From contig NC_049997.1 of assembly GCF_000003815.2 (NCBI RefSeq), positions 3,084,328 through 3,148,327 of the forward strand: a stretch of DNA of 64,000 nt. Direction: 5' to 3'. The stretch comes from Branchiostoma floridae (taxonomy: Eukaryota; Chordata; Leptocardii; Amphioxiformes; Branchiostomatidae). The notes beneath the pieces are model-generated. The model worked only from the letters and a program-made list of their open reading frames with translations. It searched no databases and was not told the DNA's origin. Below, piece by piece: positions 9,241-53,800 of this stretch (positions are counted from its first letter, which is position 1; every line of letters begins with the position of its first letter). The translations under genes were made by a program, and so were the position numbers.

Positions 9241-9273
<33 letters not shown>

Positions 9274-9280
9274 GTGTGTG
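9241..9280. repeat. TTG/TG microsatellite
   Basis: (TTG)n run passing into (TG)n. Confidence 0.9.
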
Positions 9281-9560: not shown

Positions 9561-10433
9561 GGAAATTGTACAATAAAGGTCTTCAGTCATTCATTCTTAA
9601 AAACCTGAAAGGTTCAAAGCTTTGAAGTTAGTTATCCTTCTTTACATTTGTATATACAGAAATAAAAGTTTGCATAAGAAGTTGTGATTATATAAATGTA
9701 CAGGTCTAGCTGTATGACTACCAAAAAATCTTTTTTCTGCAAAAGCTACAATACATGTAATAGGTCATAGCCTTACATTTAAGTCTTTTCTGGCAATGAA
9801 GACAATGCAGAAACTTAGTGGTGGCCATGGGATAGTCTTTGTGATGTTTTGCTTTAGTTTCGCTGTTTTCCTGACTAATAAGCTCTGCTTCAGCTGCTGA
9901 ATCTAAATTTGTCTGCGTCCTTTTGAAGACTTACTCACGGCACTTTCTCGTGGGTACCATGAGAAAGATTACAGTCCATGGGAAAACTCTCTCGTCTTCT
10001 GGGACTAATGTTTTCTTATTTGGCAAACTTCTGTGTCAGTTAAACCATCGGGCTCACGGTGGTTCCAGGGCGAAGAGGCGCCCGGCGGCTTTCATGTCAA
10101 CTCACCGTGAAAGTTTCTCACCCTCCCGTAAGGGGGAGTGAAGACCGTTGGTAATGAGAACACGATGCCTGACTCACAGAACGTACCGTGCCTTCCTTTA
10201 TACATGTGTGGGTTCTTGATGAAGTTATGAGAAAGTTACGGCCGCTAGAATCCCACGGCACAGGGAGTTGAAGAAACTACATGCGTAGATGTTTTTATTC
10301 CAAAGGATCGCGCTTGCTACTCAAAACGCTGGTACCCTAGGTTCTTATTTTTTCACCGTCTCTAGACTCTACCATGCGCAAGTCTTTACTGGACTAACGT
10401 GTCGCTGGAAATATTTTATTAAGACAAACTGGC

Positions 10434-13051: not shown

Positions 13052-14460
13052 GCTACAAATTGGCTAAATAGACAAATAATACACCAGAGGAGTCAGCTAG
13101 CCGAGGGGTACAATTTGCGACGAAAACAGTGAAACAGGAGAGAGTTATGGTGCATCTCTTCCTGTGTATCCATGCCCCCAACCGCTTTACAAATATTGAC
13201 CTCGTCAGAAAACGATTCACACATCCATGGGAACCAGAGATTTTCCCAGATAAGGTCATTAACCAATTATCTCTTATATCCGAACTGAATTATGTGGTAC
13301 TGGATCCATGTACCAGCCATTTAATTAATTAACTAGTAATTAATTGGCGTTTAATGAAGTTTATTTGCAAGTTCTTGCCCGAGGGCTAATTGCAACATGA
13401 AACATACCGAAAATATAGTAAACATACATAAAATAAAGTAATTTGGTATAGATAACAATGGTGAAAAATGTAGTGGCTATTCTATCACTGATATGGACTG
13501 CTGAGAGCTACAATCTACGCATCTGGGGTTTGACTTCTTTTCTGGAAGCAGTGAAAGACGAAGTACCCCACTTTTTCTATGATGAGTGTGTTATGTGACG
13601 TTAACAGCGTTATAGTTTTGTTTTCATCGGTAAGCGTTTGGAAATTTTTGTGTGTTTTGCATACCTCTTCAAATAACTCATTTCTTTCCTTGTCATTAGA
13701 GAGGCAGTTGGAAATAAAATGTATTTCGGAATTAATGGACTAAGGTTCCAAGGCCTATGTCGTATTAAACGTTTTCCTTGTTCCTGGTGCGACACAAATC
13801 GCTCACGCTAAGACGACTTAGCTTGGGTACCATTTTCCGCTGCTAAGACGAATCTACTTACCCTTAAAAAATGAAAAGAAAAACGGCAAATAGTGACAAT
13901 TGATATATGTATATATACAGAATAGTTGATATATACAAAACAAAGGTAGATCGCTTCTAAAATAGATGTGTATCAACTAGTTAACTATACTCACTCATTC
14001 CGATGATTCCTCATGCTCATAAAGATACGAAGAAATATGAGGTGAAAATGTAGACATCTTTATTTCTGTTTTCTTTGTAAATTCGTCTTGTGTAGGAAAT
14101 AGTGTTTTGATGGTTGTTGCTCCTGAAGCTTGAGGCGTTGTAAAGATGGGATAATTGTCTGTTGTTTCGGTTCATCGTAAAAACATTTTTGTGGGAAAAG
14201 AATCATGATATTGTTTGCTGAACCCGTATGTCTAAATATTTGCCGACACGGTGGTATCAACAATTCACACGTCTTTGGCGACCACATACATTGTAAGGCC
14301 TCTATCCAATAAATTTTGAGTATTTTAGGGTTTCAGCCAAACTCCTATCAACCTGTTGCATTACTTAAGTTTTGCTGAAGAGAAGATGCTTTTAGCAAGG
14401 TTGTAAAACTAGCTACAGACAGAAATTTGCGTCCATCTGTGTGAGTTTTCTAGCCCCAGT
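13052..14460. other. AT-rich intergenic DNA
   Basis: No gene, RNA or repeat family supported. Short ATATATGTATATATACAG tracts near 13900-13940. Confidence 0.4.
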
Positions 14461-14500
14461 CGTGTCCAGGTGCAGCCCTACCGTCTGTGGAACACATCCG

Positions 14501-14549
14501 GACTCAGACATGGCGGCGCCCGGCCAGCCTTTAACATGGAAATTCTCTC
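14501..14549 (+). promoter_or_regulatory. Distal module 1 upstream of MRF-A
   Basis: TCAGACATGGCGGC followed by CGGCC and CCTTTAACATGGAAATTCT. It matches 23338-23390 upstream of MRF-B. A shared GTCCAGGTG, which contains E-box CAGGTG, precedes both (14464 and 23299). It lies about 1.75 kb before the start codon. Confidence 0.55.
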
Positions 14550-14860
14550 GAGCCGGGAAGCGAGAGGCGAAAATTCTTCTCTCAGCGTGATGATGCTTTC
14601 ATCACTCACCCGTTTACCGGTGGGGAGAGGGGGTATGGGGTCGTGTTTGGGTCAAGTACACGTTGCTTTTTTATACCGCCCCTTACGACAACTGTATATT
14701 TTAGTCAACTTACAGTCATGCCAGGTTTCAAAATGTTAAATGTCAAACATTGTGATCCTTCTTTAGATACCTTACAGCCCCTTGGTGCAATATAAGATGT
14801 ATCCGCAAGAGGCGTTATTGCATTTAACGTGGGTAGACCGTATATGGGGCATAAATACGG

Positions 14861-14990
14861 CTAGGCTCTGTTTGGTTTTTAACGCCTTTTAAAGCGTTTT
14901 ATCGGGTATTTCTTATTTTGGAAGGGTCTCTTTTTGTTATAGAAGCGACTAAAAAGACGTTAAGATATTAGACAGAGCCAAACCTCTACT
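14861..14990. repeat. Small hairpin element
   Basis: Arms AGGCTCTGTTTGG / GACAGAGCCAAACCTC enclosing TTAACGCCTTTTAAAGCG. Similar hairpins lie near 19470-19535 and 55250-55375. Confidence 0.5.
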
Positions 14991-15250
14991 TTGAGTGTAC
15001 AAAATTACTAGTTGTCCTTTTAAATTGTTTGAAGGCAAAGAAAGCTTTGAAAAAGTAAATGCATGAATGCACTTTTCTTAATGGTTGACTTTGATAAAAA
15101 AAGTCTTTGTTGCTATGAACTTTAAGACATGAGTGTGTAGCCAGTGATTGCTGACCTCGTTTTTTTCCAAATTGGAGTAAGATGTTGCGTTCGGTGGTTT
15201 GGTGCCGTTTTAAATCGCCCCTCCCCTCCACACGAATACTCCACAGTACA

Positions 15251-15290
15251 GAAGCCCCGCACCTTTCATGTGCAGCGACCGTGACGTGTT
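15251..15290 (+). promoter_or_regulatory. Distal module 2 upstream of MRF-A
   Basis: Ungapped 34/40 identity to 24011-24050. Core CATGTGCAG then ACCGTGACGTGTT, which holds a CRE-like TGACGTG. It lies about 1.0 kb before the MRF-A start codon. Confidence 0.65.
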
Positions 15291-16016
15291 CTCTCTCCGC
15301 TCACGACAGGACCGGGCAAAATGGGATTTCAACATGCGAGGAATTCTCTAAATTCTCCCGTTGAGAAAGATAGACCCACCGTGTGTCAATGTACAGCGGT
15401 TCATATTCCTATATATACTTGATTTTATTCCCATTTATAAGGCATCCCTGAATAGACGATCGATATTAGAAACGTCGTACCTTTTAGAACACAGTTCCGC
15501 AGGAAAATCCATGCTGTTACACCTTGATAGCCATATGTGATGCTGGTTATGTACATGTGAACTTGAAATTAGGTCTTTTAAAGTTACGTAGTATTACTTT
15601 GATGAAATCGTTGTTATTGTCACCCAAAGCACAAAATAAAAGGTGTTCTGTGATCTGACACCAAAGTTACGTTGTTTAGTTGAAATTCACCTGTATTAGG
15701 TGTTTATGATCTCTTCGGCTTTTGTCGTCTCACGGTCAACAGCTTCAGGCAGGGCCTCAGTCAGTTACTGGTTACAGTTCTTGCCTGTCAGTGCCTTTGA
15801 TGACTATGTTTTTATACGTGTTTATGATACATCTGAATTTATTTCAGTGTGTAAGTCACAAGGGTTTTATAGAGGTTTCTAGCGAAGAGCTTTCAAGTCC
15901 AATTTTCTTCACGCGAACTAAACATGCTACCTCGAATAACGTCGTTCTCGAAGTGCGGCAAAATCTTATAGCACATAGCAAGGAGGACCCCCTTGCTGTT
16001 TACAGTGCCATTTTTG

Positions 16017-16056
16017 TTTGCCACCCAAGTCGGATTTGGTCCGATTTTCCTCGGCG
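16017..16056 (+). promoter_or_regulatory. Proximal MRF-A block shared with MRF-B
   Basis: GCCACCCAAGTCGG then GATTTTCCTCGG. MRF-B has the same words at 24535-24576 with a slightly longer spacer. Confidence 0.5.
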
Positions 16057-16128
16057 GGTGGAACGGTGTCCTACCGAGACAGCTTTGCCTTTCGATCGGT
16101 TCTCCAGCGGGAACACCTCCCGGCCGTC

Positions 16129-16139
16129 ATGAATATTCA
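16129..16139. promoter_or_regulatory. ATGAATATTCA palindrome, MRF-A promoter
   Basis: 11 of 12 bases of the palindrome ATGAATATTCAT found in all three MRF promoters. 50 bp upstream of the TATA box. POU/octamer-like by eye. Confidence 0.55.
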
Positions 16140-16188
16140 ACACCTTGTGAGGAGGAGCTTGAGGAATCCCCTGGTGAGGATGTACGGA

Positions 16189-16195
16189 TATAAAG
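16189..16195 (+). promoter_or_regulatory. TATA box of MRF-A
   Basis: TATAAAG in CGGATATAAAGGC, 85 bp before the first ATG. Transcription would start near 16220. Confidence 0.65.
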
Positions 16196-16279
16196 GCAGA
16201 CCTGCCCTCCTTTAAACTCACACGTGGACTCTTGTTGACAACACGACTCTTCCTTCACACAGTCTTCCGCTGTTTCTTC

Positions 16280-17981
16280 ATGATGAACTACACAGAGCTG
16301 AGCAGCTGTCGGTTCCAGTTCGACACGTCCTACCCACAATCACCGGACCAAGGCTTGGACATGTTCGGCAGTCTGCAGGTCCCCGCCCCGATGGAAGCGT
16401 ACGGAGGCTACGGTGAGTCCGCCGGGCACGTCCCGGCCCCGGCGGCGGCAGCTCACGGGCCCGGGCGGTGTCTGATGTGGGCCTGTAAGACGTGCCGGAG
16501 CAGGAAGGCGTCTCGGCACGACAGGAGGAAGGCCGCCACCATGAGGGAGAGAAGACGGCTCGTCAAGGTGAACGAGGCGTTCGAGGTGCTGAAGAAAAAG
16601 ACGCACATGAAGCCGAACCAGAAGACGCCCAAGGTGGACATCCTCCGGAACGCCATCGCCTACATCGAGCAGCTGCACCAGACTCTGCGGGACGGTCAGG
16701 AGAACTCGGCGGGACAGAGTGCGGACTCCCCCGCGGCCAGCCCCGGGGCATGCTCCGATGGAATGGTGAGTTTCTCCATCATCTTTCCCTGAAATTGAAA
16801 AGCATGTTTCAATCATTTATCCCGGTTTTTATTGCTTTTATTAGGTTGGTCGACGGGACGTGTCCTTAAACTTTTAAATCATAAATGTCGCCGTCGCTCA
16901 ATCGCATTCTACATGTAGTCATGGCCATGGAATCCAAACATATACTTATAAGTAGCCAGCAGGAGAAATCATTATCCATCAATCGTTAACGATTACGTTT
17001 TAAGAAAAATACTTTGTTTGACTCTGACGCATCCTGTAAAATTTCGTCAGCATATTGAATCCTGCAAAATCACGCATTTTGATATCATACACGCGTTTTC
17101 CTCTGCATCACTTAAATGATGACAAGAATTGTAAGGTAGCTACAAATGAGTAACGTTTTGTTTGATGTTGTTTCACAGGATTTAAACAGTCCGGCCAGCT
17201 CGTCATCAGAGTCAAGTTTCACCTGGACGGACGGTGACCTGTACCCCTCTACTGACCTCCTCTCCGGTAAGTCTTGTCATCAGGCATGTACATTTATCTT
17301 TCTGTCAGAATTGAATTGTGGCAAGAACACCTGAGTCCAGGACGATCGTGCGATAGTTCTTGGGACAGCCATGCAGTTTTAAAAGTTCAGCTGTCCTGCT
17401 ACACAAAAGGCTGTGTTAGAGCCATGTCGGTGGTTTGTTCTATCATAGCCTGCTATGGCATCAAAATCGTGCGACAATCGCACAGCGTATGTGATCGTGC
17501 CCTGACTCTTCAAATAAAAGTTAGGCTTCGGCTGGTTTTTACGTTTCTGCCTAGCTTTCTATTCTGTAAGAGTTTCTTTTGGTCCACCAGGCGACTTGAG
17601 AGTAACAAAACGTCATCTTTCTCTTTACCTTGTACTAAAGAACACGGTCGGTCAAATGTGAGAGGAATTGTTCAGGATCAATCAGAGGTGATAAAAGAGG
17701 ACAGTATTTCATTTCTCTAACATGTTTCTATTGCCTACCAGCCAACATGAGAATACCAAAACCTTGTAGTTGTAGTTGTAGTTGTAGTAGTTGTACGGAA
17801 TAATCCGAGGTAGTTGGAGGAGGAGTAGGTCGAGGACACTTTTGCAGTTTCTCTAACATGTTTCCTTTGTCTCCCGTCGACAGATTTCCTGTCCAGCATG
17901 TCTAGTGAAGCCGCTGGGACGAGTCTTGACAACCTGTCGTCCATCGTCAACAGCATCGCGCTTCCCGACGGGCACCTGTAG
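16280..17981 (+). CDS. MRF: MyoD-family myogenic bHLH factor, MRF-A (divergent paralog)
   Basis: Nuclear bHLH transcription factor of the MyoD/Myf5/myogenin/MRF4 family, which binds E-boxes with E-proteins to switch on muscle genes. Exons 16280-16765, 17179-17266 and 17884-17981; GT-AG introns in phase 0 and phase 1; 223 aa. The start is [12 protein letters not shown]; the second ATG (16283) is an equally good start. The Cys/His-Trp motif [10 protein letters not shown] is at about 63-72. The basic region [14 protein letters not shown] (81-94) keeps the myogenic Ala-Thr. HLH follows to about 138. Exon 1 ends CSDGM, as in the other two paralogs. The C-terminal helix-III-like segment is [12 protein letters not shown] (205-216). 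It differs from B and C after the basic region ([13 protein letters not shown] instead of [10 protein letters not shown]) and in the linker before it, so it is the divergent copy. MRF numbering cannot be assigned from sequence alone. Confidence 0.97.
17766..17800. repeat. GTAGTT microsatellite in MRF-A intron 2
   Basis: Repeated TAGTTG hexamers. Confidence 0.8.
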
Positions 17982-17990
17982 TCATGGACA

Positions 17991-18030
17991 CAAGATGGCG
18001 GCGTCCAAGATGGCGGATCCAAGATGGCGG
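17991..18030 (+). promoter_or_regulatory. Three tandem CAAGATGGCGG sites in MRF-A 3' UTR
   Basis: CAAGATGGCGG begins at 17991, 18006 and 18020, starting 9 bp after the stop codon. CAAGATGGCGG fits the YY1 consensus. Spacing of 14-15 bp. Confidence 0.55.
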
Positions 18031-18209
18031 CCACAATCACTAAAATATTCCGTTCCTTTGTAATCAATTCCATGTTCGACGGACTCTTCTGTCACTAATA
18101 GAAAGTCGTAAATTTTATACGTAATTGACATTTCGACCATGTACGACTTGTGCAAGAATGTCATCGAGAAATGTGTCGTGATTTTTTGTCAATATGAATC
18201 TATTTTTAT

Positions 18210-18215
18210 AATAAA
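18210..18215 (+). terminator. Poly(A) signal of MRF-A
   Basis: AATAAA in TATAATAAAATATC, about 230 bp after the stop; T/G-rich sequence follows. Confidence 0.65.
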
Positions 18216-18259
18216 ATATCAAGGAAAAGTATACCATGTTGTCGTCTGATTTACGTATA

Positions 18260-19460
18260 CAATGTACTTTAGTGTCAGGGATAGTAAAGGGGTCGACATG
18301 ACCGGTGAACATATCGATGGATCTAATGAGGAAAAAAGATACAGATCAGTCCAGAAACTCGGAAGTATGAAATATAGACAAAGTTAGTATGTTACTTATA
18401 ACTGTCCTGTTAGGTTCATCACAGGTCGTAATCACAGAAAAAGCAATACAAACTTACAAAAAACTTTAAGGAACATTTCAAGTAATAGTTATACTGACTA
18501 GATCTATATCTTTGTGCAGGTATAGCAAGAAATGAGTGTTCTTACACGTGGACAGCCCAACCGCGTTCAAACTTCGACATGCCCTTTAAACAGAATTAGA
18601 AAACGTTTTACACCTGGTTGAAAATTTAAGACACCCTTTTCTATGCAGGGCGCTTTGAAAACCGCCCTAGTGTCGACACGTCGTCCCTTGTTAAGTAAAT
18701 AAAATGAAATGAAGTGCTACAGAGGAGTCTATAGTTCGCAGCAACAAGGTCATCTACCTAAATCAGAATGCATTCTTTAGTTATTTACACACTTGAAACC
18801 CTTCAACACGGCCCTTACCATACAGGCGATATAATGCCTACCTATCCTTGCCTACATATAGTATGTTCCTTGATGAATAAGTAAAGCCCGTAGAAAGTGT
18901 TGCCAAGTTCAGGGCGTAAGAACTGTACGTCTGTTGACACAAGCTATGGTACATGTATATTGTTGCCACGAAAGCTGCTATACCCCATTTCCACTAGGAC
19001 AACGCTCTGGTCGCGCGCACCTTAAATTTAACTCTTATCTTCTTATCATGATACTGGACAAAACCCCGCGTGGGGCATAATGTCCAGGAACTCGCCTAAC
19101 AAATTGTATAGAACAGAAAACTTATCTTTTTTACGCTTTGTGTGTTTTGTTGTCTTTTCAGTCACACGTTTACATTTTTTATGATATACCCTGTATGAAA
19201 TTGAAGGATACACATGTCCTATTTAGGTCGCAGTCAGAGAGCAGCGCGATCGTCGTCTAGTGGAAAGGGGCTTTAGAAGAAGCCATGTGACCTACCCGAG
19301 TACTCCGCTTTCTATCAAATATGATTACTAAGTCAATTGTTGCCTTGATTACGTTCAAATTTACTGTTTGTGCCCCAAATGAGAGGTTGTATGATAAACA
19401 CTTATGGAAGAATAAAGTATGAAATGATTTAAACTCCAAGCAGATGTTTTTATCGTTTTT
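18260..19460. other. Intergenic between MRF-A and MRF-B, first part
   Basis: No gene or repeat supported. Confidence 0.4.
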
Positions 19461-19554
19461 TTTTAATGTTTGGCTGGTGGACTTAAAAAGCGCTTAAAAC
19501 ACGTCCAAAACCAGCCGAGGCCGAACCTCTGCTAGTTGGCAAGTAGCTATTGGG

Positions 19555-19745
19555 CTGAACAAAGTTTCCAAGGAGTATAAAAGCCCACAGTTTCCAAAGA
19601 GCCCAAATAAGCTAAAAAAAAATCTGTCAATGAAGTTAGCTGGCCCACTGTGTCTCCTATGATCGCCTTTAAACGGTCTTTTCCCCTAATTTCAACCGTA
19701 CAGCTGCAGCCAGAAATCACCAGCTGATTTCTGGGGTGGACTTTA
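19555..19745. promoter_or_regulatory. Candidate muscle-type regulatory block
   Basis: Two CAGCTG E-boxes (19701-19706, 19721-19726), a CCAAATAAGC and a GCTAAAAAAAAATC (CArG/MEF2-like) upstream, and a perfect 9 bp inverted repeat CAGAAATCA/TGATTTCTG at 19711-19733 spanning the second E-box. Lies between two MRF genes. Function is inference. Confidence 0.35.
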
Positions 19746-20701
19746 AACAATCGCCGGGCTTGTTTGCTCAGTAACTGGGCCCGATCGGGCGCAAGTGTTC
19801 CTTCCCTCCGAGAGTTGGGGGTAGCTGCACGGTGCGCCCTGTACAAACCTTCTCGGGGCAACTGTTCCAATATCCTCACGACAAATCACTCCCCTGAGGA
19901 GACACACTTTCCGCGCGGCCCTCAAGATGGATGGGGGTAGGGTGACGTCACTGCAGTACATCATGGTCACCGCTAGGTGATGCAGGTGTCACAGAGCGTT
20001 TAGATGGACTTGAAAGATACTATCAAGCGAAGAATCAAAGGTTTCCAAAGTATTTCATCATTTCAAAGTAAGGCATTACTACACAAAAATACAAATTCTA
20101 TTAGCAGGAATGTTACGAGGCTTTTATTATAACCCAACAATTAGCGAAAGGAGATTCGACCATGTACTTTTTTTTTCCTTTTTTACTTCGCGGCGAAATA
20201 ACTTATGAACGGCAATCTTGTATGTAAGCTTTGGTTTTGGATATGATTAGGCTGAAACTAAGTTTATGAAAAAAATGTGGACAAATTCATCATATCAAAG
20301 ACTCTTTTGGCTTGACTTGACTTAAAAGATCGTCATAAGAATGTACTTGCAAGAATGCGCGCAATTCATACCGGGTGTTTTCTTGCTGTTGCTACGTGCA
20401 TGGATAAAATACATTTCTTATTCTAGTGTGACCGCGACCAACATGCACCCCGCCCTCCGCACGACAAACGTCGACAGATGAATTTGACCCTGACTCTAGG
20501 AGTGAGCAGTTGTGGCAAGTGGCACGCGTCGACAGCACGGCCGGACAAAGGCCTGCCTTATACGTGCCCGTCCCCCGTGTCGCCGGCAGCCCGCAAGTCG
20601 CGTGGATGAACAAGAGGAGACCGGGTCCTGTGTCGTCCTCCCGGGCCGGGTATCCACACCCAGGAGACGGGAGGGAGGCTTCGGTTTCTGTTCCTACTGT
20701 C

Positions 20702-21340
20702 TGTTGCTATGCGATTTCTTCAATAAATGAACGAACAGGAAAACCATTTCAACATTCTATAGGTGTATGAATGAGGATTGAATGTTGCTATGCGATTTCT
20801 TCAATTGATGAAAGAACATAATCCCCAAGCAGATCCTACGGTGCCATAAGATAGTATCAAAGCTGGCCAGGGAGTATAGCCGGCTAAGGGAGTCAAACGG
20901 GCACCGGAAGTTTGATACTATACATTACGCACCCTGGATCTGGTTGGAGATTAGAAAGAACAGGCTAGGCAAACCATTAAATTTACTATCATAGGTGTAT
21001 GGATGAGGATAGAATGTTGCTATGCGATTTCTTGAATAGATGAATGAACAGGAAAACATTTACACAATCTGAAGATGTATTACTGAGGATAGAATGCTGC
21101 CATGGTCGTGGATTATACGAGACTATTATGATAATGTTTCTGCGACACGTATTATAAAAGATACGATACCATGACAGGGAACACTGCGGCTTGTATACTA
21201 GTACTAAGTAGGTGTATGAATGTGGATAGAATGTTGCTATGCGATTTCTTCAATTGATGAATTAACAGGAAAAACACTATTTAAACATTCTATACATGTA
21301 TGAAGTATGAATGAGGATAGAATGTTACCACAGTCGTGAA
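20702..21340. repeat. Dispersed direct repeats TGTTGCTATGCGATTTCTT
   Basis: Four copies at about 20702, 20783, 21015 and 21232, each followed by TGAA(T/C)GAACAGGAAAA-like sequence and preceded by GTATGAATG(A/T)GGAT. A hairpin ATAGTATCAAA ... TTTGATACTATA (about 20850-20928) interrupts the array. Confidence 0.75.
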
Positions 21341-22587
21341 TTATATGACACTGATTAAGCCTCTGCCTCGTATCATAAAAGATATGATATCACGAAGAGA
21401 AATACTGATATTTTATCACAAAATGTAAATACAATGTCACGTTTTTTGTACGTCTCCAACTAGATGACAGGCTCTGGACTACAATTGAATTTCTAAAAAG
21501 CAAGCTGGCCTTGTTGTAACTTTTGTTTTTGTTGTTGTTTCTTTTATCTAAATTCAATGGTGTGTGAAGCGTTTTATACAGCTGCTATGAAATATGTGGA
21601 TTTAGCATAAGACAACAAACAATTGATTGAATGAGCTAACACAAAATGGGTCGGAAATTTCAATAATTTTGAATCTTCAATTTCAGCCCGGAAAGTTTGC
21701 TGCTCACTGCTTTCAGTTTGGTGATTTTTGACAATTTTCTTTGCCCCCCCCCCCCCCCCCCCCCCCAAATCTTGGGAAGAAGCTCTTTCTTGCGTTCATA
21801 TGTGAAGATCCGTACGTGTGTGTTATCTATGTGTGTGTCCGGGACCCCGGCTGTGTAATAAACACAGGCTCGTTGAAAAATCATCAACACTTTCTATGTC
21901 TTCAAGATGCCGACAAAGATAGCAAACGTCTTCCATTCACTTTCACAAAGAAGAGAAAACAAGAAGACACACAAGTCTCCTGAAATCTCCGTTTTTATAT
22001 GACGAAGAAAATGCTGACCAAGTACATAAACGTTTGCGCCAGAGAAACCCAAAGTTTTCCCTGAGAAAACCTACCGTATAAAGCAAATTTATCATCACTG
22101 AGGGACGCGATTTGGCGCGTACTGACAAAGTGACATCATTAGAAAACGATTGTCACTTCTGGGCTAAGTGGAGACGTGCCAGATAATAGTGATTCACACC
22201 GATCTGGCACTTCCGACTTCTGTGTGTATTGAGAGGCGGTTAGCACAAACAGCAGAACAAGAGATTTAACGGGATAAAGCTATTTTCGCCTTTGTGTTAA
22301 TCCGGTTTAGAGTGGATTGTGGTAATCGAGCTAATAAACTCATCAGTGGCACGAGAGGATGAGATTTTAACGAGCACCATAACAAACGGTCAGAACTGAG
22401 CGAGCAGATGTTAATGTCTTCAGAAGAAAACTCTCCCAAGATGGCGCAGTCTTTGTTTTCATCTGACTCATAACAGCTCTAAGTGATGAGGCACATGTGA
22501 CTGTTAAGCACGGAAAGTTTGTTGTCATAAAGCTGGGACGTCCTTCCTAAAACTAACTCATAGTATTTCAAAGTGTGAAAACCTAAA
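21341..22587. other. Intergenic DNA upstream of MRF-B
   Basis: A homopolymer C tract of about 22 bases at 21745-21766; nothing else supported. Confidence 0.4.
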
Positions 22588-22719
22588 ATAGCCTATACCG
22601 GGCTCCACAGGTCGCAAACTGTACTCCTCGGCCATCTAACTCCTCTGGTGTGTTTTCTGTCTTATTTGGCCAATTTCTACTATTTTTCTAGCGACCTGTG
22701 GAGCCTGGTAGAGGCTATG
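22588..22719. mobile_element. Hairpin MITE, GGCTCCACAGGTCGC arms
   Basis: TAGCCTATACCGGGCTCCAC and its near inverse GTGGAGCCTGGTAGAGGCTA, with GGTCGC/GCGACC. Related ends occur near 10355, 10850, 11805 and 39460-39525. Confidence 0.75.
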
Positions 22720-23337
22720 TGATAAATACATTGATTGTAGTCCAGTCTATTTGTTGCAGGATAGCAACTATTCGGGGATGTGTACTGCTTATCTCACATG
22801 CAACAGTCTGTGTTTATCACATGTAGTACGTTCTTTAAATAATCGGATCACAAATGTTTAACTTAAAAGTGATATTCTCAGAAATAAAATCAATTCAGAC
22901 CTTTGCGGGTGTTTTGATACACAGAACTATTACCTCAGGACATAAGTTACCGTTACTTTTATTATACCCACAAAATTTCCAAACATTTACTGACAAAACA
23001 AAACTATAACCCTGTTTACGTCACATAACAAACTCATTATAGAAAAAGTGGGACACTTCGTCTTCCACTGCTTCCATCCAGAAAACAAGTGAAACCCCAA
23101 ATGCTTAGATTGTAGCTCTTTATCTGTACTGTACATATCACCAGAACAGCCTCTTGTTTCTACACCATCTATACCAAAGTCTTTTATTTTTTGTATGTTT
23201 ACAATTTATTCTGTATGTCACATGTTGCAATTAGCCCACGGGCAACAACTTGCAAATAAACTTTCATCATTATATTTCTATCCTTTCTCCTCCCGGTTGG
23301 TCCAGGTGGCGGGAGCCGCGGCTGGTGTACACCTCCC

Positions 23338-23390
23338 GGGGTCAGACATACTGGCGGCCGGCGCGCGCCTTTTAAATGGAAATTCTTTCT
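23338..23390 (+). promoter_or_regulatory. Distal module 1 upstream of MRF-B
   Basis: GGGGTCAGACATACTGGCGG then CGGC and CCTTTTAAATGGAAATTCT; counterpart of 14501-14549. About 1.5 kb before the start codon, with E-box CAGGTG at 23302-23307. Confidence 0.55.
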
Positions 23391-24010
23391 AATGGCTACA
23401 AGTTCTTGTCCCAGCATGGCGGGCCCTTCATGTCCGACCGCCCGGAGGATCCTGGGGGACACCAGAAGGATGACGTCATTTTCAGACGACGTTTAGGGTT
23501 GACCAAGGAGGCTTTATCAGCTAAAACCTCCAGGGTTGACCGATATTTTGTTTAGCTAAAATGACTTTAACTCGTGCGCTTCAAGTTTCTTTTCTATTTG
23601 ATTGTTGAAGATGTTGTGTTTTTTTTGCCTACGTCGGGTAACGTTAACTTTGAGTTTGAAAGAGTTGTTTTAGAAATTTTGATCTAGAAGTAGAAATTGA
23701 CGTCGGTTGACGACAACAAGTCAAAATATCAGAAAGAAAGAGAAAAAAATTCTAGAAAAAAAAGGAGGAAAGCAAATTTAGAATCTTTGTGTGTTTGTAT
23801 TCTACGCTACTGTTTATCTTGGGAAGTCTTTCAATTCACAGACAATTGAGGACAATGGTCGTGTGTCCAAACAAAGCGATTGTATCATGCGAACAACTTC
23901 AAGGTGGCAAACTTCAGCACTTCTTGAAAGGAAGGGTACAAACACAGAACACGCACAAGCTGTAATAGGCCCTCACGTTTACATCACAACACCTCTGGAC
24001 AACAGATCTA

Positions 24011-24050
24011 GGAGCTCCGAACCTTTTATGTGCAGATACCGTGACGTGTT
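24011..24050 (+). promoter_or_regulatory. Distal module 2 upstream of MRF-B
   Basis: 34/40 ungapped match to 15251-15290. Core ATGTGCAG then ACCGTGACGTGTT. About 0.85 kb before the start codon; module order is the same as in MRF-A. Confidence 0.65.
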
Positions 24051-24534
24051 GTAGAGGGGGAGGGGCCGCGGGACGACTTCAAGATGAGAGAAGTCTTCAT
24101 GCGAGAAATTGCCACAACAACTTTTCTTGTACTTTGGAGTGCCTTCGAAATACAAAATTGTATTCAATGCAGTAATAATGATATTATTGCAACTTCTATT
24201 GCAAGTGACAAAAAGGACATACAAACAATAGTAACAGCATAGTGAGCGACTACTCTATTAAAAGGCCGACTCTAGAAATGTATTGGGTTTGACCTATTTT
24301 TCTGAGACGGTGGAAGAGTTAGACGATGGATCACCACTTTCCTGTAATGTGTGGGTTTTGAGATGCTAAAAGGAGAGAAGTTTTCTTTTTATCTGCTGGC
24401 CTGTCAAGAAGGAATATCAACATGTGTCAGCACACAAAAGTTCTGTTACATTAGCGAACATCTTCCATGTGCAGATGGTTCTAAGCAGACACAAGTGACG
24501 CATCTTGACTTCCAGCCGAGTTGTGACCTGTCGT

Positions 24535-24576
24535 GCCACCCAAGTCGGCCCGGCTCGCAGCACCGATTCTCCTCGG
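24535..24576 (+). promoter_or_regulatory. Proximal MRF-B block shared with MRF-A
   Basis: CCACCCAAGTCGG and GATTCTCCTCGG. Confidence 0.5.
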
Positions 24577-24657
24577 TAGGGGTAACGAGGTCCAACCGAG
24601 AAAACTCACATCCCGAGCAGGTTCCCAGAGGGGGCACCGTGTTTCCAAATCGGGAGT

Positions 24658-24669
24658 ATGAATATTCAT
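24658..24669. promoter_or_regulatory. ATGAATATTCAT palindrome, MRF-B promoter
   Basis: Perfect 12 bp palindrome, 55 bp upstream of the TATA-like box; identical to the one upstream of MRF-C. Confidence 0.55.
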
Positions 24670-24723
24670 AGGTCACCAGAGTGGGAGGGGCCGGTGGACT
24701 GCCCCCCTTTGGAGGAAAGCGGG

Positions 24724-24730
24724 TATATTA
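24724..24730 (+). promoter_or_regulatory. TATA-like box of MRF-B
   Basis: TATATTA in GCGGGTATATTAGCGC, 149 bp before the ATG, at the same distance from the palindrome as in MRF-A. Confidence 0.55.
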
Positions 24731-24878
24731 GCGCTCGGCGGATCCTCTAACAACATACATGTGCCCTTGTTCGAGCGGAGAGTGTCAGTGTTCATCACTT
24801 GCTCTCTGACACTTCAAAATATCACTCCCATCACAGTTTTAGTTGGAGTAGGGGTGACTTAAGAGACACCAGACCAGG

Positions 24879-27800
24879 ATGGAGTTTGTGGAACTGAGCA
24901 GCTGTAGGTTCGACGCGACGCCGACCTTCTGCGATCGTCCAGCCGCCCCCAACGCCACGGTCCTACCGGGCGAACACTTCCCCGTACCGAACGGCTCTTA
25001 CGAGTCGGACCATGGGGACGGTCACGTCCTGGCCCCGGGCCCGTCCTTCCACGGCCCCGGCCGCTGTCTGCTCTGGGCCTGCAAGGCGTGCAAGAAGAAG
25101 ACGGTCCCGATCGACAGGAGAAAGGCCGCCACCATGAGAGAGAGGCGTCGTCTGGTCAAAGTCAACGAGGCCTTCGACATACTGAAGAAGAAGTCATGTG
25201 CCAACCCGAATCAGAGGCTCCCCAAGGTGGAAATCCTCCGCAACGCCATCTCCTACATCGAGCAGCTCCACAAACTGCTACGGGACAGCAAGGAGAACTC
25301 GTCGGGAGAGGTCTCGGACAGCTCCGCTCCCAGCCCCGGGTCCTGCTCGGACGGAATGGTGAGTTGACTCCGCCCGTTACATGTTAGAACACGACCGGAC
25401 AGGGACGGATCAGAAAACCGAGATCAAACGACAAGCGAGTCAAGTCGTTATCCCCCTTGTCAGGCCTGGCTTCCGTTGTGTATAATTAGTTAACAATCCT
25501 GACGATAAAGAAGCTTCCGAAACTTATATAATTGCACAGTGGGGAGTTTAAAGTACATCTAGATATTCATACAAATTAGTCAAAATTATAAGTTGTCGAT
25601 TGTCTAGCGTTGCTGTAGAAATATTCACGTCTAGTTTATGGTTTTTCACTTCACTAGAAACATGAATAGTGTTCATATATGTACTGTACAGGGTTACTTA
25701 CAGGGTTACTGGTGTCTTTTTATGGCAGTGCGTAGGAGGAAAAGTTCCCATAGCCGTATTAACTTTTACTACATGAGAACCATATCCATGACGCAGACCG
25801 TCTGTACGATATGACGTTAGCAGTCTTTATCTGGGTCTTACTATCGCTCCATCCTCCCAGCCTTGATCCATATTTACCCCGGCTGACTCGCCCGAAAATG
25901 GCGTTGAGATAGATCCCATATCTACTTCTGATAATGGCCTCCTAATGACGTGCTTCAGTCCGTGGGTAGTTGTGGGATTTCAGCTTCACAGAGAAACGTT
26001 CAACTAGTGATGTCCGCCGCTCTCATCTGGTCTTCATTACGCAAACCTACGTTGTGTTTCCAAGTGGGGTCAGCAGGCCCCATGCCCCTGGGCTATCAGC
26101 TCCCCTGCACCACTTTGGTTCAGTAACTTTTCAATCTGTACTGCAGATAAATTTAATTAGCAAGAAAAACAATGTTGTCCCATGGAAGTAGCACTCATTA
26201 CCGGGGGTACTGCTGACAGAGTCGGCCGCAAATGGGAGAGTCGGGAGGGGAAAATATGATCCGTGTTAAGGGTGAGGTGTGGGGAAAAGTCGACTGTCTG
26301 ACCTAGACTGGGTGTAAACTGACACTACAAGTACCTTTTCTTCTGGCGATCCGAATACTGGCGTCCTTTTTTTTGGTGAGAAGCCAAAATAGAAACGTTT
26401 TTGTACTTAATCGCTTTTGACAATCGCTACACACATATACATGTATACACAGAGGTACTAGGCCACGTAAATTGAAATTGGAAAGATATGCATTGTACCT
26501 TTTGTTGTTTGATAAACAGTGATACTTTTAGTTTTAACATACTAAACCTTGCTTCAACAGGCTTACAGCTAGAACCCTCTAAATGTGTACATAAGAGTAT
26601 TTGAGTGCAATGTCAATGGTTAGATAACGTTGTTTATTATTTCCTCTTCTTCCTTGCAGGCTGCCCACAGTCCCCACAGCTTCTGTACAGACACATCCGG
26701 GAACTCATCCTGGGAACATGGTGACAGGCATCATGGGAACGGTAAGAGAACTTCCATCTTACCTTCCTAGGCTACAGAAACATGGACGTTCTTTTGACAG
26801 AATGACTCTTTCTGTTGTCTCAGTGAGAAGTTTGCCTTCGATTAAGCATTGTTCCGATACTTTGGACGTTATGATGCCACAAATTAGCCTACAATAGTTA
26901 TAAACAATTCCATTTTACTTTGTAGACACAAGCAACTGCTTATAAATGTTAAAACTGAAGAAACGACCCTGCAAAGCAAAGAACACAAAATATGGAACGT
27001 TATCCACTGTATGAAACATACCTTGTATTGATGTAAACATAAGAACACACAGCGATCGCTTCACAAAAGAAAACATCGCTTCTTGCTTTAGCTGCCATAA
27101 AAGATGCATTTATAGTTAATGAAGCTGTTTTAAAGACCATAACATTGCAAAGTGATTTGTAATTGAAAGTGATAGCGTAAGCAGGCACATGTACCCTGCG
27201 TGATGCCGCATATCAGGTTACAGTCTGTCTATAAATACATGGGCTATAGAATAACGCACTATTCAAAACGGAGTTATACAGGGCAGTAATACAGGATTTT
27301 ATGAACTTGATTTTTGCTCAAGTCAAAGTTGTAGAATGGCAATATTGTAGTTCGTTAAGACTTAACCGAAGAATAAAGTGCTGGTTCTAACTGGAATAGA
27401 TATTAATGTTGGCATGATAATTGAAAGCTGAGACGGGGCATCATTTCCAGAATATTCCAGTCATAAATCATCGGTATATATATATATAGATGTCGATGAA
27501 TGGAAATTGTCCATAGTTTTGTGTCTTGTGAGAAATGTTTTCGGACACACGTTTTGGCTCTGTGGCATACTACAGTTATGAGTAACAATTGGCAAACAGT
27601 TACTCATTTTCTTTGCTTTATTTTTATATCCCATGCACCCAATGTATTGTAGCAATCCTCTTGACCAAAACAGGACCCAAACGGACTCAAATATGCATGC
27701 TCCATTCAGAAATTTATTTTGAATTACTTAAATGGCTCTTTTTGTACCGATCAATCCTCTGTTATCGACAATGGCAATCGTATATTGTTTTAATTTAATA

Positions 27801-28219
27801 ATGTAATAAATTGATCATAGATACTTAAACGTAAGTCCTTAACAAATTATTAATTATCGTTTATTGACGGAACGTCCGATTCTGTACCAGAAAGCGCAAA
27901 AAAAAGTTCTAAACTTTTTGAACTGTTAGTGCAAAAGTGTATCGACATAATTCATTGCACTACAAATTAATTTCTTTATTTTGCACTTCATGTTTGATCC
28001 ACAAACTGCGAATGACTTTAGCTAAGAAAAGACTGTTTTTTGTGTGTTGTTGCTATTGTGGTTTGTGCCTGACCATAGTTTTCCTGTTCTCTCCTAGGCC
28101 ACGAGAACCAGTCATGCGGTAACAACGTGTCGAGTCTAGACTGTTTGTCTCTCATCGTACAGAGCATTTCTACTATTGAAGGCGAGGAGAACAACAACGC
28201 GAGCAACCCGCCAAGATGA
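24879..28219 (+). CDS. MRF: MyoD-family myogenic bHLH factor, MRF-B
   Basis: Muscle determination/differentiation factor of the MyoD family, acting in the nucleus. Exons 24879-25358, 26660-26741 and 28098-28219; introns of 1301 and 1356 bp in phases 0 and 1; 227 aa. The start is [13 protein letters not shown]. The Cys/His-Trp motif [13 protein letters not shown] is at 62-74, identical in core to vertebrate MyoD (the region that in MyoD contacts Pbx). The bHLH is at 79-135 with [14 protein letters not shown] and [15 protein letters not shown]. An acidic Ser-rich stretch is followed by CSDGM at the exon end. The C-terminal [15 protein letters not shown] (199-213) matches MRF-C and resembles the helix III transactivation segment of Myf5/MyoD. 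Tandem with MRF-A, same strand, about 6.9 kb apart. No damage seen. Confidence 0.98.
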
Positions 28220-30550: not shown

Positions 30551-30650
30551 AGAAGCTCCCGAGCCTCTTACAAAAGACCACCGGGTCACGTCCGACCCAC
30601 GTCCGGGGACCAGACATGACGGCGGCCGGTACCGCTTTGAAATGGAGCCG
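30551..30650 (+). promoter_or_regulatory. Orphan copy of MRF upstream modules
   Basis: CCAGACATGACGGCGGCCGG then CGCTTTGAAATGGAG at 30610-30645 matches module 1 of MRF-A and MRF-B. AGTATAGAAGCTCCCGAGCC just before it resembles the start of module 2 (AGTACAGAAGCCCCGCACC). No MRF exon follows on the plus strand. Confidence 0.4.
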
Positions 30651-47841: not shown

Positions 47842-50800
47842 TCACTGCGGTGTGCTTCTTGAAATCTCGCGAGAGTTGTCCTCGCCCGTGGACGAGACGA
47901 TGACGTCATCACTGTTTTCCTCTGACGCAGACTCTAACGTGGCAGCTGTCTGCGCATGTGCAGAGGTGGATATACTCTGGACGATGAGGGACAAGCAGTC
48001 TAAACTGGATACCTTGCTGGCGTTGTAACCTGGAGGGGAATAATAGATTTGGAATGGATAGATTAAAATTATGAAAACACCAATATTTTACATAATTGTT
48101 TCTAAAAATCATACAGGGTTAGACATCCAAGTAATAAGGCACACGATAAAAGATATCTATTTGTAAACGGTCCATTTTTCGTCAGTTGAAGCTAAAGACA
48201 GAAAGTAAAAATCTATCCACTTGCTTGAGTAAGATACCGTCTACCCCCCTCCCCCATTGGATCTTTTTCCAGTCACAGAAGCATATTTTCAACATCAGTT
48301 TTCAGTCAGCGACAGAGTCAGTTTTTGCCCAGAGCAGAAAATGTCTGAGTTTCTGTTTTGTAATTAAGGGACGACCTCGGCCTGTGATTGTGATCTGGGA
48401 GAGGATTATGCTTATCTGAGCAGATATCCCGTTTTCCGGACCAACAGATAAAGTCTGGGTAGACTTTAGTGTTTGTTGTTTCTCTGTGCACGGGAACGGG
48501 AGCGGACCAGACAGGCGATATCAATTAATGTAGCGGTAACTTCGTCAGACCATTTAAGGAACGGAGTACTAGTTAACGGACCAGTGGTAAGTAGTGGAGG
48601 ATTTATCCAAGTTGTCGACATCTCAAATTTATTGCGATGTAATCATCATATTGTTATGACTTTCATCATATTAAGCCATTAGTTTCAAGACATTTTAAGT
48701 GTCGTTTAAAGTGAGGCGAATTATATTGCAACGATATTGCTCCTTAATTTTTGAATTGGCGAAGGACATGTTCTGATGGTTACTATGACAACTTGTTGAT
48801 TTTCATAAACGTATCTTCCTTCAAAAATAAATCATTTCGTCATATTTCCTTTGCAAATTTTTGTCCTATTTTGAAAAACAGTAAAAAAAAATGACAATAA
48901 TTACCCTGTCTGGAGAAGCATCGCGCTGTAAACATTATAATCAATTCAGGGTGGTGAAATTTGTACATTTTAAGCAGCTCAGGTTAATCGCTGTTTCCGT
49001 CTTGTTATGGGTTTTAATAACTATTTCCTTTGTTAGTTGATCTGTTTCTCTTCTCCCACAGGGCTATAATCATCCCTAAATGAGCCCCATCTGTAGTGAG
49101 TGATAACCTGACCCTGACCTTCCTAAATCTCAGCTTTATTCCCCGCACATTGCCCCACGTTTACAACTTCCCTCCATTTACTGGACTATAAAACATGTTA
49201 GTTACACCAAGTTCACAATCATGTACTTGACCTTATTTGGTTACGTACGGTAATTTGTTCATTAGCATTCTACCGATTTGGTGAGGATTTTCCTTCTCAC
49301 TACAATCACTAGAAGTAGTAGAATAGTTATGTAGCAAGTCCTCATAAGATTGTCATTTATAAGTATAAAAATGAACTAGCGATATAACATTATTTGACTT
49401 TTGGCTTTGTGCATAATATCAATGGCACGAAACAATAATAAAGATTCCCTGTGATCACTTATAATACTCACGACTAGAACACAAGCGATAGGGGATCTTT
49501 TTATTCGCAGTATTAGGCAAAAATCACAATTTGCTCATACAAAGCCTCCTACTCAAAGGGCCATATTTTCCAACACAGGTTGAATATAACAGGTTTAATT
49601 GGCCACTCCTATCATTCTTGTTGGGTTCTACTTATGTTCATTATATATGGCGGCCACGATTCTCGAACGTTATGATGAACTGTACATGTCTTGATTAATT
49701 CTATTAAGTATCAGTATAATTTAATGATTTGGGTTTTACTATTTAAGGACGATACAGGAGAGAACTGGGGTTATGCTAAGAGCACAAGGTTTCCAGATAT
49801 AAAAATTTAGATCTTGGAGCCATGTTGGTGACGTTTTCATGTTTTATTGCTCTTCGTGATAATGTTAAAAGGCAAAGTGCAGAACTCTGGCAATCACCAA
49901 CAACGCAAGAACACAACACGTCGTTCCAGCATCACCCCTTCCCCTGCAGGAAAGCCAGCCTGTCCATGTAAGGCGTAAGTACGTGTCTGCTGGGACGTCT
50001 CTTGTCGGGCCCACTTGTTCTGCTGCCTATTAGAGGCGTTAAACGCAGAATAAATGGCCACTACTGAACACAGTGAGATAAGCAATGGCTCCACACGAAC
50101 CATAATCGGGCTATTCTATTACTTGTTGCCGCTATCAAAAAATACAGGCATTGAGACGAAGGTCAAGTTCGACTTTGGGTTCCAAGCGTGTTTTCTTGGT
50201 ACTGCAGCAGAACTTCTGATTTCTGTATCCTTTGTCTGGACATGCAATGGTTTTGTTATTTTGCTAAATAAACAATCAATATTCCTGTAGTTATCGTCAG
50301 GAAGAAATGGTGTAGGCTTGGGTCGTCTGGTAGACGATGTTGTTGGATTGATGACTGCAATGACTAATTGTATTGCTATGAAGATACTAGTACACATATG
50401 TACCTTGTATTGACTTAAATATTATCTTACTCTAATTGATACTTAGCGACTGCTGTGCACTACTAGGAAGTGTGAAAACTCCTTGGTGCACGAGTAGTAC
50501 TTTTTAATTTAGCCAACTTCTAACCCATCAAAAAAACTTGAATTAAACTTACGGGCTACGAGTATAAATACAGTAGTAGTGTAAACGCTCTCTGCATATT
50601 TGACTCAGTACTAATGTATATTGCCCAATGTATGTTTTCCGTCGTATACGTATATAAGAACTGGTCTTTGAACACTGTATCTTTCTTTAACAAAGATATA
50701 CTGTTTATACTGAGGTATCGTTATTGACAGTCGAATTAGATTAGCAGAAATAAGGCATGAGGAGGGGGGATTAAACTGCAAACGTCATAGTCTAATGTGA

Positions 50801-53800
50801 TCCGCTCTTTACGTCCTTACGGATTAAAACGGAACCCTGGATGCCTCAGGCCCGGAACAGCGCTTATGAACACCTAATGCTGTAAGGTATCCTGATACTA
50901 GACCTGTCAGTAACCATACCTCAATTACAACGCAGGGGAAAATAATATACAATTGTCTCGGATGTTGCGGAGCTCGGTCGACGTCGGAAGGAATAAGTTG
51001 TTTTGAGCTTCTTTAAGCACAACAGTAAAGTTGTAAGTCAGAAGTAAGTCAGTCCTGATCGTTGTCAAGCCCACGGAAAGCCTTCCGGGTGTGAACTAAT
51101 CCCTCCAACCTATGTAAACGCATGTACAGTCTGTTGTATAAACTTTACGTAGCTGCGAAAACAAACATGGTTGTACGATGTTCGCTCTCTGATGACAGAC
51201 CGTCGACCGGACTGCCTGGACACACTTCTTGTGGGTGTCGGTGCGGATTTGAAGATAAGAAGGTTTGTTTCAGTGGGAAAGTATACTTTAAACACGGTAA
51301 GCCATATGTGGATCGTTGGAGGATGAGGGGGGGGGGGGGGGTGACCATGTGGTTCGTGTTGGACTAAGGGCGAATACTAAACCAAATGTTGAAAAAACAG
51401 TTGTTTGAAGGTCGGCCAAAGCAGCGGCGTTCATCGCCCGAAGGGTGCTCTTATCACGGGCGGGGGCCTGCTTCTCATTTCTGACTTTGTTTGCTCCTCA
51501 AAACGGAGTTGAACTGGTCTGGGGGAGACAAGACTGCTAATTCTGCCAATCAGAATCATAGTAACCGAACGACGATAATGAATGAAAGACCTTTATTGCA
51601 CATTTATGCTCAAACAAGCTAAGTACAGGTCGTAGCGATGAGGTACAATTTCATGTTTTCTTTCTACATCTACAGAGTTTACTACAGGTTCAACTTCTCG
51701 CTTCTTCAGAGTCTTCAGACAGCTGTAAACATAAGGGCAGATGCAATCAATAATGTACTGTCGTCAAGCAAATCCAACAAATATGGAGTGCGATGATACG
51801 TTAACGTATCAAAGGCTTATTCGTCTTCTACATGGCGGGGAATAGCCTGATTAAATCTCGCTTGTAGCAGCCCGCCCAACAACATCCATGGGGAGGGGCC
51901 AGTTACAGCCCGGACAGCAGAGTTTGTGTTACACAGACTACCGGTGGAAGGCTCCTAAAAACAGCTTTTCCAGCACAGTTACATTGCCAAGTACAGAGGG
52001 TTAAATATATCGCTCTTGTCTTGTCTAATGTTTGACTCAGGTAAACTAGAAATAACCTTCTCGGTTACACATGATGAGAAGTAGGTGTAGGAGATGACCA
52101 GACAACCCCCCGCGGAGAGACATGGTCCTATCCCGTCCATTACATCCTCCCTGCTGAGGCAACAGGTCCGGGGACAACACGGCAAAACTTTCCCAGGACT
52201 AACCAGATTAAAACAGGCTGGGCACGGATGGGAACACCATCATTCATGCCTCAATGCAAAAAAGGAACTTCGTATAATCTATATATTACTTGTAAAGATC
52301 CTCACTGTGTCTCCTTTCAATATTGTATTCAAAGAAGATAAACTGAATGTAGTTTGTGCAAGATCTATGCTACCAGCAAGTAGTATCATGCAACAATCTG
52401 GCTTTGTTTGTCTCACATGATGACATTAGTATACGTACTGTGTTTCCTTTTGATATTGCATGGAATCTACATCTACTGTTACTAGACTCTATGTGGCTAG
52501 CTGTCTTCTACAGTATACTAAGTTTACATCCGATCGTACCTGTTGCAAATGTTGACCCAATTTGTTGTGCAGTAAACTTTGACTTGACCGATATCGAGAC
52601 GTTTATACTAGTATCTTCCATGGAAAGGGGAGTTGGTTATCTGACAAAGAAAGAAACTTGACGACACGACATAAGCTTCATATGCTAACATTTTGTCCAA
52701 ATTTGCGAATACGCGACAATACAGACAGCTTAGACCGTGGATTAGTAAAACTAACGTCTCGGGGGTTTATAAGCGATTCCATCGCAAGTCAATCAAATAT
52801 AGCTTTAGCAGTCTTATCTCGAGTCGTCTAACTTTCATCAAAGTATGTCGGAAGCCACATCAGGGGCTGATTTAGCGCTCCCTTTCTTCTGCAGTAGCGG
52901 AAGTTTACTCCGACGTTACCACACCCACACAGTGTTTATAAACTCCACCTCAGAAAGGCCTGTCCTGCAGTAGTGTTGTCATGTGGGATGCAGGTAGAGT
53001 GTATAACGACATGAGAAAATGATGAAACGGGGGCAGTTTCCGCTGTATAACGAGGCTCGTTTGTTTGTGTTGAGTCGCGGACAGCAGGCCGATTGGCCGG
53101 CCCCGGGCCCCGGCAGACACACGCTCCTCATTAGCTTAATTCGGCGGGTTTGGAAGCGATTTGGCCCGAAGTGGAACCACATGCGGCGCCGATGACCTTC
53201 GGGATGAGTTACTAGGCTGCGCGGAAGGACTTGTCAGCCTCCCCGCTCCCGAGACTGATCGCTATCAGCATCGCTGCCGACGGAGGTCCCGTCCGAGGGG
53301 CAGCGGGGACGGGGAAGCTTCGGGTCGGAGGACATAAGGTTCACGCGAGGGGCAAATCATCGGCTGACTCCGACGTCTGTCCTCTCTTGTAGGGCGTGGG
53401 ACAAAATGCACGGTACATTAACCGCGTGACCCTTACCTGTCGGCTCATTCTCACGATCTACATCAGTATTAAACTTTTAAAGAATTAAAACTCTAAATTG
53501 CGTGATCATCTATCAAGAAACACTTAAGTAATCTATTGAATTTACTCTCGTACCCCCAGGGGTGCCTAAGCATTTGCACGAACCCTATGAAATTCGTACG
53601 AATATTATGTGATACACACGAATCACTATGCGAAAACGCACGGATATTATGAAATTCGCACGAATCACTATGCGAAATCGTACGAATTTTATGAAATTCG
53701 CACGAATCACTATGTGACACACACGAGCCTTATGTGATTTGCACGATCCTTATGCAAAAACGGCGGNNNNNNNNNNNNNNNNNNNNNNNNNNNNNNNNNN

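Follow-up and report, generated by a model that had tools for sequence, protein, structure and literature searches.

A 40-bp element that occurs upstream of MyoD-type genes (MRF genes) of the lancelet Branchiostoma floridae is probably the core of an ancestral cis-regulatory module that was kept by purifying selection and that most likely acts as a two-protein core of an early enhancer; we put the probability of this reading at about 65%. The window, that is the whole stretch of 64,000 nucleotides analysed, corresponds to C19:3084328-3148327. Window-coordinates above 64,000 continue the same numbering into neighbouring stretches beyond it, the locus examined being 113.6 kb; genome-wide counts cover 513,431,437 bases on 431 contigs. 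Three MyoD-type genes, A, B and C, are located in the window (Table 1), and two more, A' and E, lie beyond it on the minus strand with start codons at window-coordinates 72196 and 79821. In a protein search of the whole genome these five headed the 15 matches (E values from 3.7e-42 to 1.2e-22); the sixth match had an E value of 2.6e-8. As reasoned below from gene order and published primers rather than from database records, A is taken to be MRF2b, B MRF1, C MRF3, A' MRF2a and E MRF4.

The stretches 15251-15290, before A, and 24011-24050, before B, were identical at 34 of 40 positions without a gap and shared a fully identical end, ACCGTGACGTGTT, as the original prediction had stated. Markov versions of both 2-kb upstream regions gave a best 40-mer of 24.8 matches on average and of 28 at most (60 trials), and 80 pairs of real 2-kb segments drawn at random from the window yielded, at best, 33 matches (in a GT microsatellite), 31 and 29. 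A set of 248 40-mers, spaced 20 bp apart across the 5 kb before B, was compared with the 5 kb upstream of A, and the best reached 30 matches; two of these 40-mers overlap the element and none has its exact register. The coding 5' ends of A and B are less alike than the element, as had been claimed, with 92 of 155 amino acids and 26 of 41 fourfold sites of exon 1 identical. A third copy, before MRF2a (C19:3157389-3157487, minus strand), was 98% identical to the A copy.

The element had been described as a lone pair. Instead, it was found by blastn to be part of the middle one of three blocks, modules 1, 2 and 3, which are colinear before A and B, and further copies were present beyond these two genes. 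Module 1 (14447-14549 versus 23284-23389) was 69% identical (E value 2.7e-8) and module 3 63% (E value 5.2e-10). The local scores of modules 1, 2 and 3 were 40, 29 and 52, compared with null maxima of 15.5, 9.0 and 16.5. Upstream of module 1 there was no similarity between A and B above chance (100 of 100 shuffles were as good), and the two gaps between the modules (81 and 20 of 100), the 5' untranslated region (92 of 100), introns 1 and 2 (29 and 66 of 100) and the 3' flank (11 of 100) were likewise at null level. Similarity has thus mostly been lost around the two genes and kept in the modules, and the claim of an element that is common to MRF genes and was kept while the surrounding DNA diverged stands to this extent. 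Colinearity and the loss of similarity between the modules were observed directly. Seven of ten A-B upstream alignment rows were set aside, either as inverted or non-colinear repeats (309, 69, 49 and 57 columns) or as short same-strand matches (E values 0.011, 0.028 and 0.55). The longest of these repeats is an inverted pair resembling a mobile element (13357-13655 and 22966-23263, 80% over 309 columns), one copy of which ends about 20 bp before module 1 of B.

The blocks might also be neutral remnants, A and B being a fairly young pair in which some stretches were spared changes and small insertions or deletions. For this speaks that A and B agree at more of the fourfold sites of exon 1 than A and C (12 of 35) or B and C (19 of 46), and that the identity of modules 1 and 3 does not go beyond that of such sites. 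Against it, the introns, the 3' flank and the DNA between the modules have no detectable A-B similarity, and module 2 occurs with exact spacing again before MRF4 and at 10089. Furthermore, all five MRF genes are reported from Asymmetron too (PMC7530620), so that the duplications must be old. Module 2 itself exceeded the fourfold yardstick (P = 0.002 for a single stretch chosen after the fact). Neutral persistence is therefore considered unlikely.

Within module 2 the pattern CTTTYATGT-N7-CCGTGA was present exactly, with a fixed spacing of 7 bp, in all five copies of the cluster: before MRF2b, MRF1, MRF2a and MRF4, and in an orphan copy upstream of A (Table 1, F). Of its seven exact matches in the genome, five lay in the MRF cluster, and the flanks of the other two aligned no better than a short core. 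The extended pattern ACCTTTYATGTGCAGNNACCGTGACGTGTT, searched with up to three mismatches, had three matches in the genome, all before MRF genes (A, B and A'), and its reversed control had none. The element is thus not a dispersed repeat, in agreement with the original prediction, and its confinement to the cluster was observed directly. The bipartite pattern was defined after inspection of the five copies. With up to one mismatch allowed, Markov versions of the locus (113.6 kb) give an expectation of 0.07 matches.

The copy before MRF4 (80961-80933) was diverged and was found by a profile search. The orphan copy was weak by profile (E value 1.3), and its first match was equalled by 2 of 60 nulls. 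These two copies were nearest to each other, about 62 bp aligning with a score of 26.5 (0 of 100 shuffles as good). At MRF3 the module was absent: outside the five copies no stretch of the 113.6 kb matched the bipartite core with up to two mismatches. Seven stretches had exactly three mismatches, compared with 7.6 in shuffles at three or fewer, and the likeness of the 2 kb upstream of MRF3 to A and B was at shuffle level (34 and 46 of 100). Between MRF1 and MRF3, at 32960-33260, AACCTTTTATG, ACCGTGAC and TGACGTCA are clustered in an order unlike that of module 2, with profile scores at chance. A possible extension of module 2 in the 3' direction (Table 1) contains CATGCGAG, which occurred in the window at 15333 and 24098 only; the alignment of this tail (CATGCGAGRAATT at both positions) was weak, 4 of 100 shuffles being as good, and the extension was not retained in the MRF2a copy.

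The original prediction had pointed to a CRE-like TGACGTG in the element. This CREB/ATF site can be imagined as the working part, with signalling by cyclic adenosine monophosphate (cAMP) leading to the onset of MRF expression, and a review describes CREB as driving Myf5 and Pax3 in the mouse dermomyotome (PMC3180440). TGACGTG was found in three of the five module 2 copies, but neither the MRF4 copy nor the orphan contains it, and the two strands of the window together had 30 occurrences of TGACGT. We regard this explanation as quite improbable, and TGACGTG is not supported as the shared core.

Module 3 corresponds to the proximal promoter. A remnant of it was found before MRF4 by profile search (E value 3.7e-5), and the DNA upstream of MRF4 resembled that of A (0 of 100 shuffles as good). 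Sites similar to ATGAATATTCAT, with up to one mismatch, were found four times in the 113.6 kb, each 140-313 bp upstream of an MRF start codon; the site was exact at MRF1 and MRF3 and had one mismatch at MRF2a and MRF2b, while MRF4 had the half site ATATTCAT only. As 200 shuffled windows contained 0.36 such sites on average and three at most, their placement is more telling than their number. At MRF3 this site was the sole trace of the shared promoter that was found. ATGAATATTCAT is identical to the MORE-A4 variant bound by POU class III proteins in mouse neural stem cells. There the site is backed by chromatin immunoprecipitation sequencing of POU proteins (PMC4576985), whereas the lancelet sites are candidates for such binding. 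A short inverted repeat, CTCGG...CCGAG, with a less conserved middle was observed in module 3 of both promoters (16045-16078 and 24567-24602).

Module 1 before A contains what we take to be an E-box, CAGGTG, together with CAGACA and a presumably YY1-like ATGGCGGC. A similar stretch downstream of B (Table 1, D) reached local scores of 24 and 21.5, whereas 20 Markov versions of the window gave 20.5 and 20.0 at most. A profile in which A was entered twice together with B detected a weaker copy at window-coordinate 82474-82524 (E value 0.002); a further stretch at 67442-67376, on the MRF3 strand, was discounted (E value 0.06).

The region of A comprising the upstream modules, the promoter and exon 1 recurs inverted before and in MRF2a as three islands of about 0.48, 0.12 and 0.95 kb (14185-14664 and 74188-73703; 15216-15339 and 73165-73043; 15818-16770 and 72667-71706, the MRF2a side lying beyond the window). 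The islands were 90-94% identical on opposite strands, about 57 kb apart. Their cores were nearly perfect, with 239 of 240 (14419-14658), 40 of 40 (15256-15295) and 279 of 280 (16026-16305) positions identical, and the outer edges were less alike (199 of 234 and 151 of 185). Exon 1 of the two genes differed at 6 of 486 sites, all of them third positions. Upstream of the first island (11 of 60 shuffles as good), between the islands (15 and 13 of 60) and in intron 1 (24 of 60) MRF2a and MRF2b were at null level, and intron 1 together with exons 2-3 was matched by 68 of 100 shuffles. Thirteen of 16 alignment rows between the A region and the right-hand side were set aside as shorter and more diverged scattered repeats (69-81%).

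This fits the pattern of gene conversion, in which the front end of an old MRF2a/MRF2b pair would have been freshly homogenised. As the non-coding cores differ less than the third positions of exon 1, selection as well as conversion seems to have acted on them. Conversion could also be the whole explanation, keeping the copies alike without any function of the element. The near-identical cores next to an unrelated intron 1 and unrelated exons 2-3 would agree with this, but the similarity between A and B is only 63-85% and restricted to the modules, and the diverged copies, that of MRF4 and the orphan, have retained the bipartite core as well. Conversion alone is thus very unlikely. The claim that selection or conversion had preserved the element holds in part: conversion suits the copies of MRF2b and MRF2a and is a poor explanation for A and B. 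Least probable of all is that the 40 bp are part of a transcribed unit, be it an alternative promoter, a small RNA or an upstream exon common to both genes. The GC-rich module 1 with its YY1-like ATGGCGGC in A could be cited for this, but the six A/B changes had by eye no one-frame third-position pattern, the distance from the element to the 3' tail is 82 bp in A and 87 bp in B and the frame is therefore broken, and Rfam gave no match in the 64-kb window; a coding or RNA reading was rejected accordingly.

We therefore favour selection on a regulatory module. The ancestral lancelet MRF gene would have carried upstream modules in the order 1-2-promoter, and these would have been duplicated along with the gene and retained by purifying selection, the modules and exon 1 of MRF2a and MRF2b being additionally homogenised by conversion between the inverted copies. 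Two proteins may bind side by side to CTTTYATGT and CCGTGA at the fixed spacing of 7 bp, and module 2 would then help MRF transcription to start early in the presomitic mesoderm, the promoter used being one that carries a POU dimer-like site. In B. floridae, MRF1, MRF2a and MRF4 are reported to be expressed from the gastrula on at the blastopore lip, and MRF3 to start in the early neurula in the central somites (PMC7530620). Module 2 was present at the three genes with gastrula onset and absent at MRF3; an early-onset enhancer core is the simplest reading for this reason. Enhancer action and timing of module 2 are, like the label "myogenic enhancer core" of the original prediction, deductions of this kind.

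A Pax3/7-type paired-domain protein is the leading guess for the second half of the core. On the opposite strand CCGTGA reads TCACGG, which is part of the PAX3 paired-domain consensus GTCA[C/T]GG (PMC12111051) and was found in all five copies; GTCACGG was exact in four, the fifth having TTCACGG. In vertebrates Pax3/7 acts upstream of the MRF genes (PMC7530620), and the lancelet likeness to this control is a match to a common motif. A TCF site was rejected for CTTTYATGT because the five copies have C or T where the CTTTG consensus has its G. Where the letters of the paired-domain site appeared in literature text they were those of a primer and not of a binding site, and they were absent from PMC12574859.

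Several points weigh against the preferred reading. The GTCA[C/T]GG consensus had 17 matches in the window, lancelet Pax3/7 is reported to lie laterally in the somite beside the MRF2 cells (PMC8141804), and peaks of the muscular somite in the lancelet neurula are reported as enriched in T-box and MRF motifs, POU activity being described as neural (PMC11136973, a source of ATAC-seq for B. lanceolatum); the proposed binding proteins are guesses for these reasons. The reversed core pattern, a form without CpG, was commoner genome-wide than the core itself (18 versus 7 matches). The MRF4 copy of module 2 was weak by profile alone (E value 0.2), the DNA upstream of MRF4 was at shuffle level when compared with B (29 of 100), and the 69% and 63% identity of modules 1 and 3 did not exceed the exon 1 fourfold yardstick. 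Finally, the regulatory role would have to be read from one genome.

Non-coding elements that stay conserved before developmental genes after duplication are a known kind. Like these, the modules are colinear blocks near paralogous regulators with diverged flanks; peculiar to the lancelet, in this single genome, are the cluster-specific bipartite core and its fixed spacing at four of five MRF genes and an orphan site. No published description of the modules was found among the titles and abstract openings that were screened, and neither "enhancer" nor "conserved noncoding" occurs in PMC7530620.

The gene names were assigned as follows. The forward primer published for a B. floridae bacterial artificial chromosome (BAC) matched exon 2 of A (28 of 28, 17236-17263), and the reverse primer matched gene E downstream of its exon 1 (23 of 23, 78094-78116). 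Since this BAC was checked by polymerase chain reaction (PCR) between MRF2b and MRF4 (PMC7530620), A should be MRF2b and E MRF4. The exon 1 protein of A' was identical to that of A (162 of 162), which agrees with the statement that MRF2a and MRF2b have exon 1 in common (PMC7530620) and makes A' MRF2a. In both published gene orders MRF1 is next to MRF2b and MRF3 next to MRF2a (PMC7530620), so that B would be MRF1 and C MRF3.

These published orders are MRF4-2a-3-1-2b, given for the B. floridae and B. belcheri assemblies, and MRF4-2b-1-3-2a, given for the B. floridae BAC and for B. lanceolatum; the BAC arrangement was confirmed by long-range PCR, and assembly error as the cause was left undecided (PMC7530620). 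In the present assembly both BAC primers point to the left and would face each other if the interior were inverted. As primers of the same direction give no PCR product, the order in the BAC would differ from that of this assembly. The segment from MRF2a to MRF2b is flanked by near-identical inverted repeats, the three islands on opposite strands, and the primer map fits an inversion between them in the BAC. An exchange inside the island of exon 1 and promoter would give a primer product of about 6.9 kb by arithmetic, and it would account for the grouping of exon 1 according to species and of exons 2-3 according to gene. The different orders may also stem from misassembly, on either side, at the near-identical repeats.

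The islands might even act as a reversible switch, an idea to which we give somewhat less than an even chance. Crossover between the inverted MRF2a and MRF2b fronts, kept alike by conversion, would flip exons 2-3 of both genes together with MRF1 and MRF3 and would join each outer promoter and exon 1 to the 3' half of the other gene. On this view the two published orders would represent real alternative alleles that recur across several Branchiostoma species, and modules 1-3 of the two genes would keep their place outside the flipped interior. A comparable case is HsInv0241, a human inversion that swaps the first exons of AQP12A and AQP12B, likewise contained in inverted copies of two paralogs (PMC3961182). 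HsInv0241 was genotyped in people, whereas in the lancelet there are two reported orders and possibly a misassembly; unlike it, the lancelet islands are short and include upstream modules.

Some features of the locus are independent of the MRF modules. Stretches of about 200 bp at 10432-10647, 10904-11116, 12912-13059 and window-coordinate 76365-76569 form one family (74-77%); as the copies match on both strands, it is probably a palindromic short mobile element. An open frame of 345 codons at 515-1552 (minus strand) presumably resembles part of a cytochrome P450. At 46837-47410 there is a long run of short tandem units similar to CTACTCTACT, with LLYSTLL repeats in open frames.

Table 1. Features of the MRF locus in the window; gene names are those assigned in the text
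Feature	Position	Strand	Details
Orphan module 2 copy (F), 6.2 kb upstream of A	10077..10138	+	CTTTCATGT-N7-CCGTGA at 10089-10110
A region with three islands recurring inverted before and in MRF2a	14185..16770	+	
Module 1 before A, distal block	14447..14602	+	
Module 2 core before A (MRF2b), first copy	15250..15290	+	CTTTCATGT-N7-CCGTGA at 15263-15284; blastn E 1.4e-6 versus B
Possible 3' extension of module 2 before A	15333..15345	+	CATGCGAGGAATT
Module 3, proximal promoter of A	16019..16236	+	TGCCACCCAAGTCGG, POU dimer-like site, TATAAA
ATGAATATTCAA, one mismatch to MORE-A4	16129..16140	+	151 bp before A start codon
Gene A (MRF2b)	16280..17981	+	ATG 16280; exon 1 16280-16765; exon 2 from 17179; exon 3 to 17981
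Module 1 before B	23284..23432	+	
Module 2 core before B (MRF1), second copy	24010..24050	+	CTTTTATGT-N7-CCGTGA at 24023-24044
Possible 3' extension of module 2 before B	24098..24110	+	CATGCGAGAAATT
Module 3, proximal promoter of B	24534..24771	+	
ATGAATATTCAT, exact MORE-A4	24658..24669	+	221 bp before B start codon
Gene B (MRF1)	24879..28219	+	ATG 24879; exon 1 24879-25358; exon 2 from 26660; exon 3 to ~28219
Module 1-like stretch (D) downstream of B	30598..30646	+	nhmmer E 1.8e-4
Gene C (MRF3)	47929..58742	-	ATG 58742; exon 1 58742-58245; exon 3-like weak match near 48009-47929
ATGAATATTCAT, exact MORE-A4, palindrome	59044..59055	-	~300 bp before C (MRF3) start codon

The inverted islands offer a physical basis for two questions raised in PMC7530620, namely why MRF2a and MRF2b have exon 1 in common within a species and differ in exons 2-3, and why the assemblies disagree on the gene order. 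For the lancelet counterparts of MyoD, module 2 provides a candidate regulatory code that is short, specific to the cluster and open to direct testing in reporter embryos. This code predicts that the genes with module 2 would be expressed early and that MRF3, lacking it, would be expressed late.

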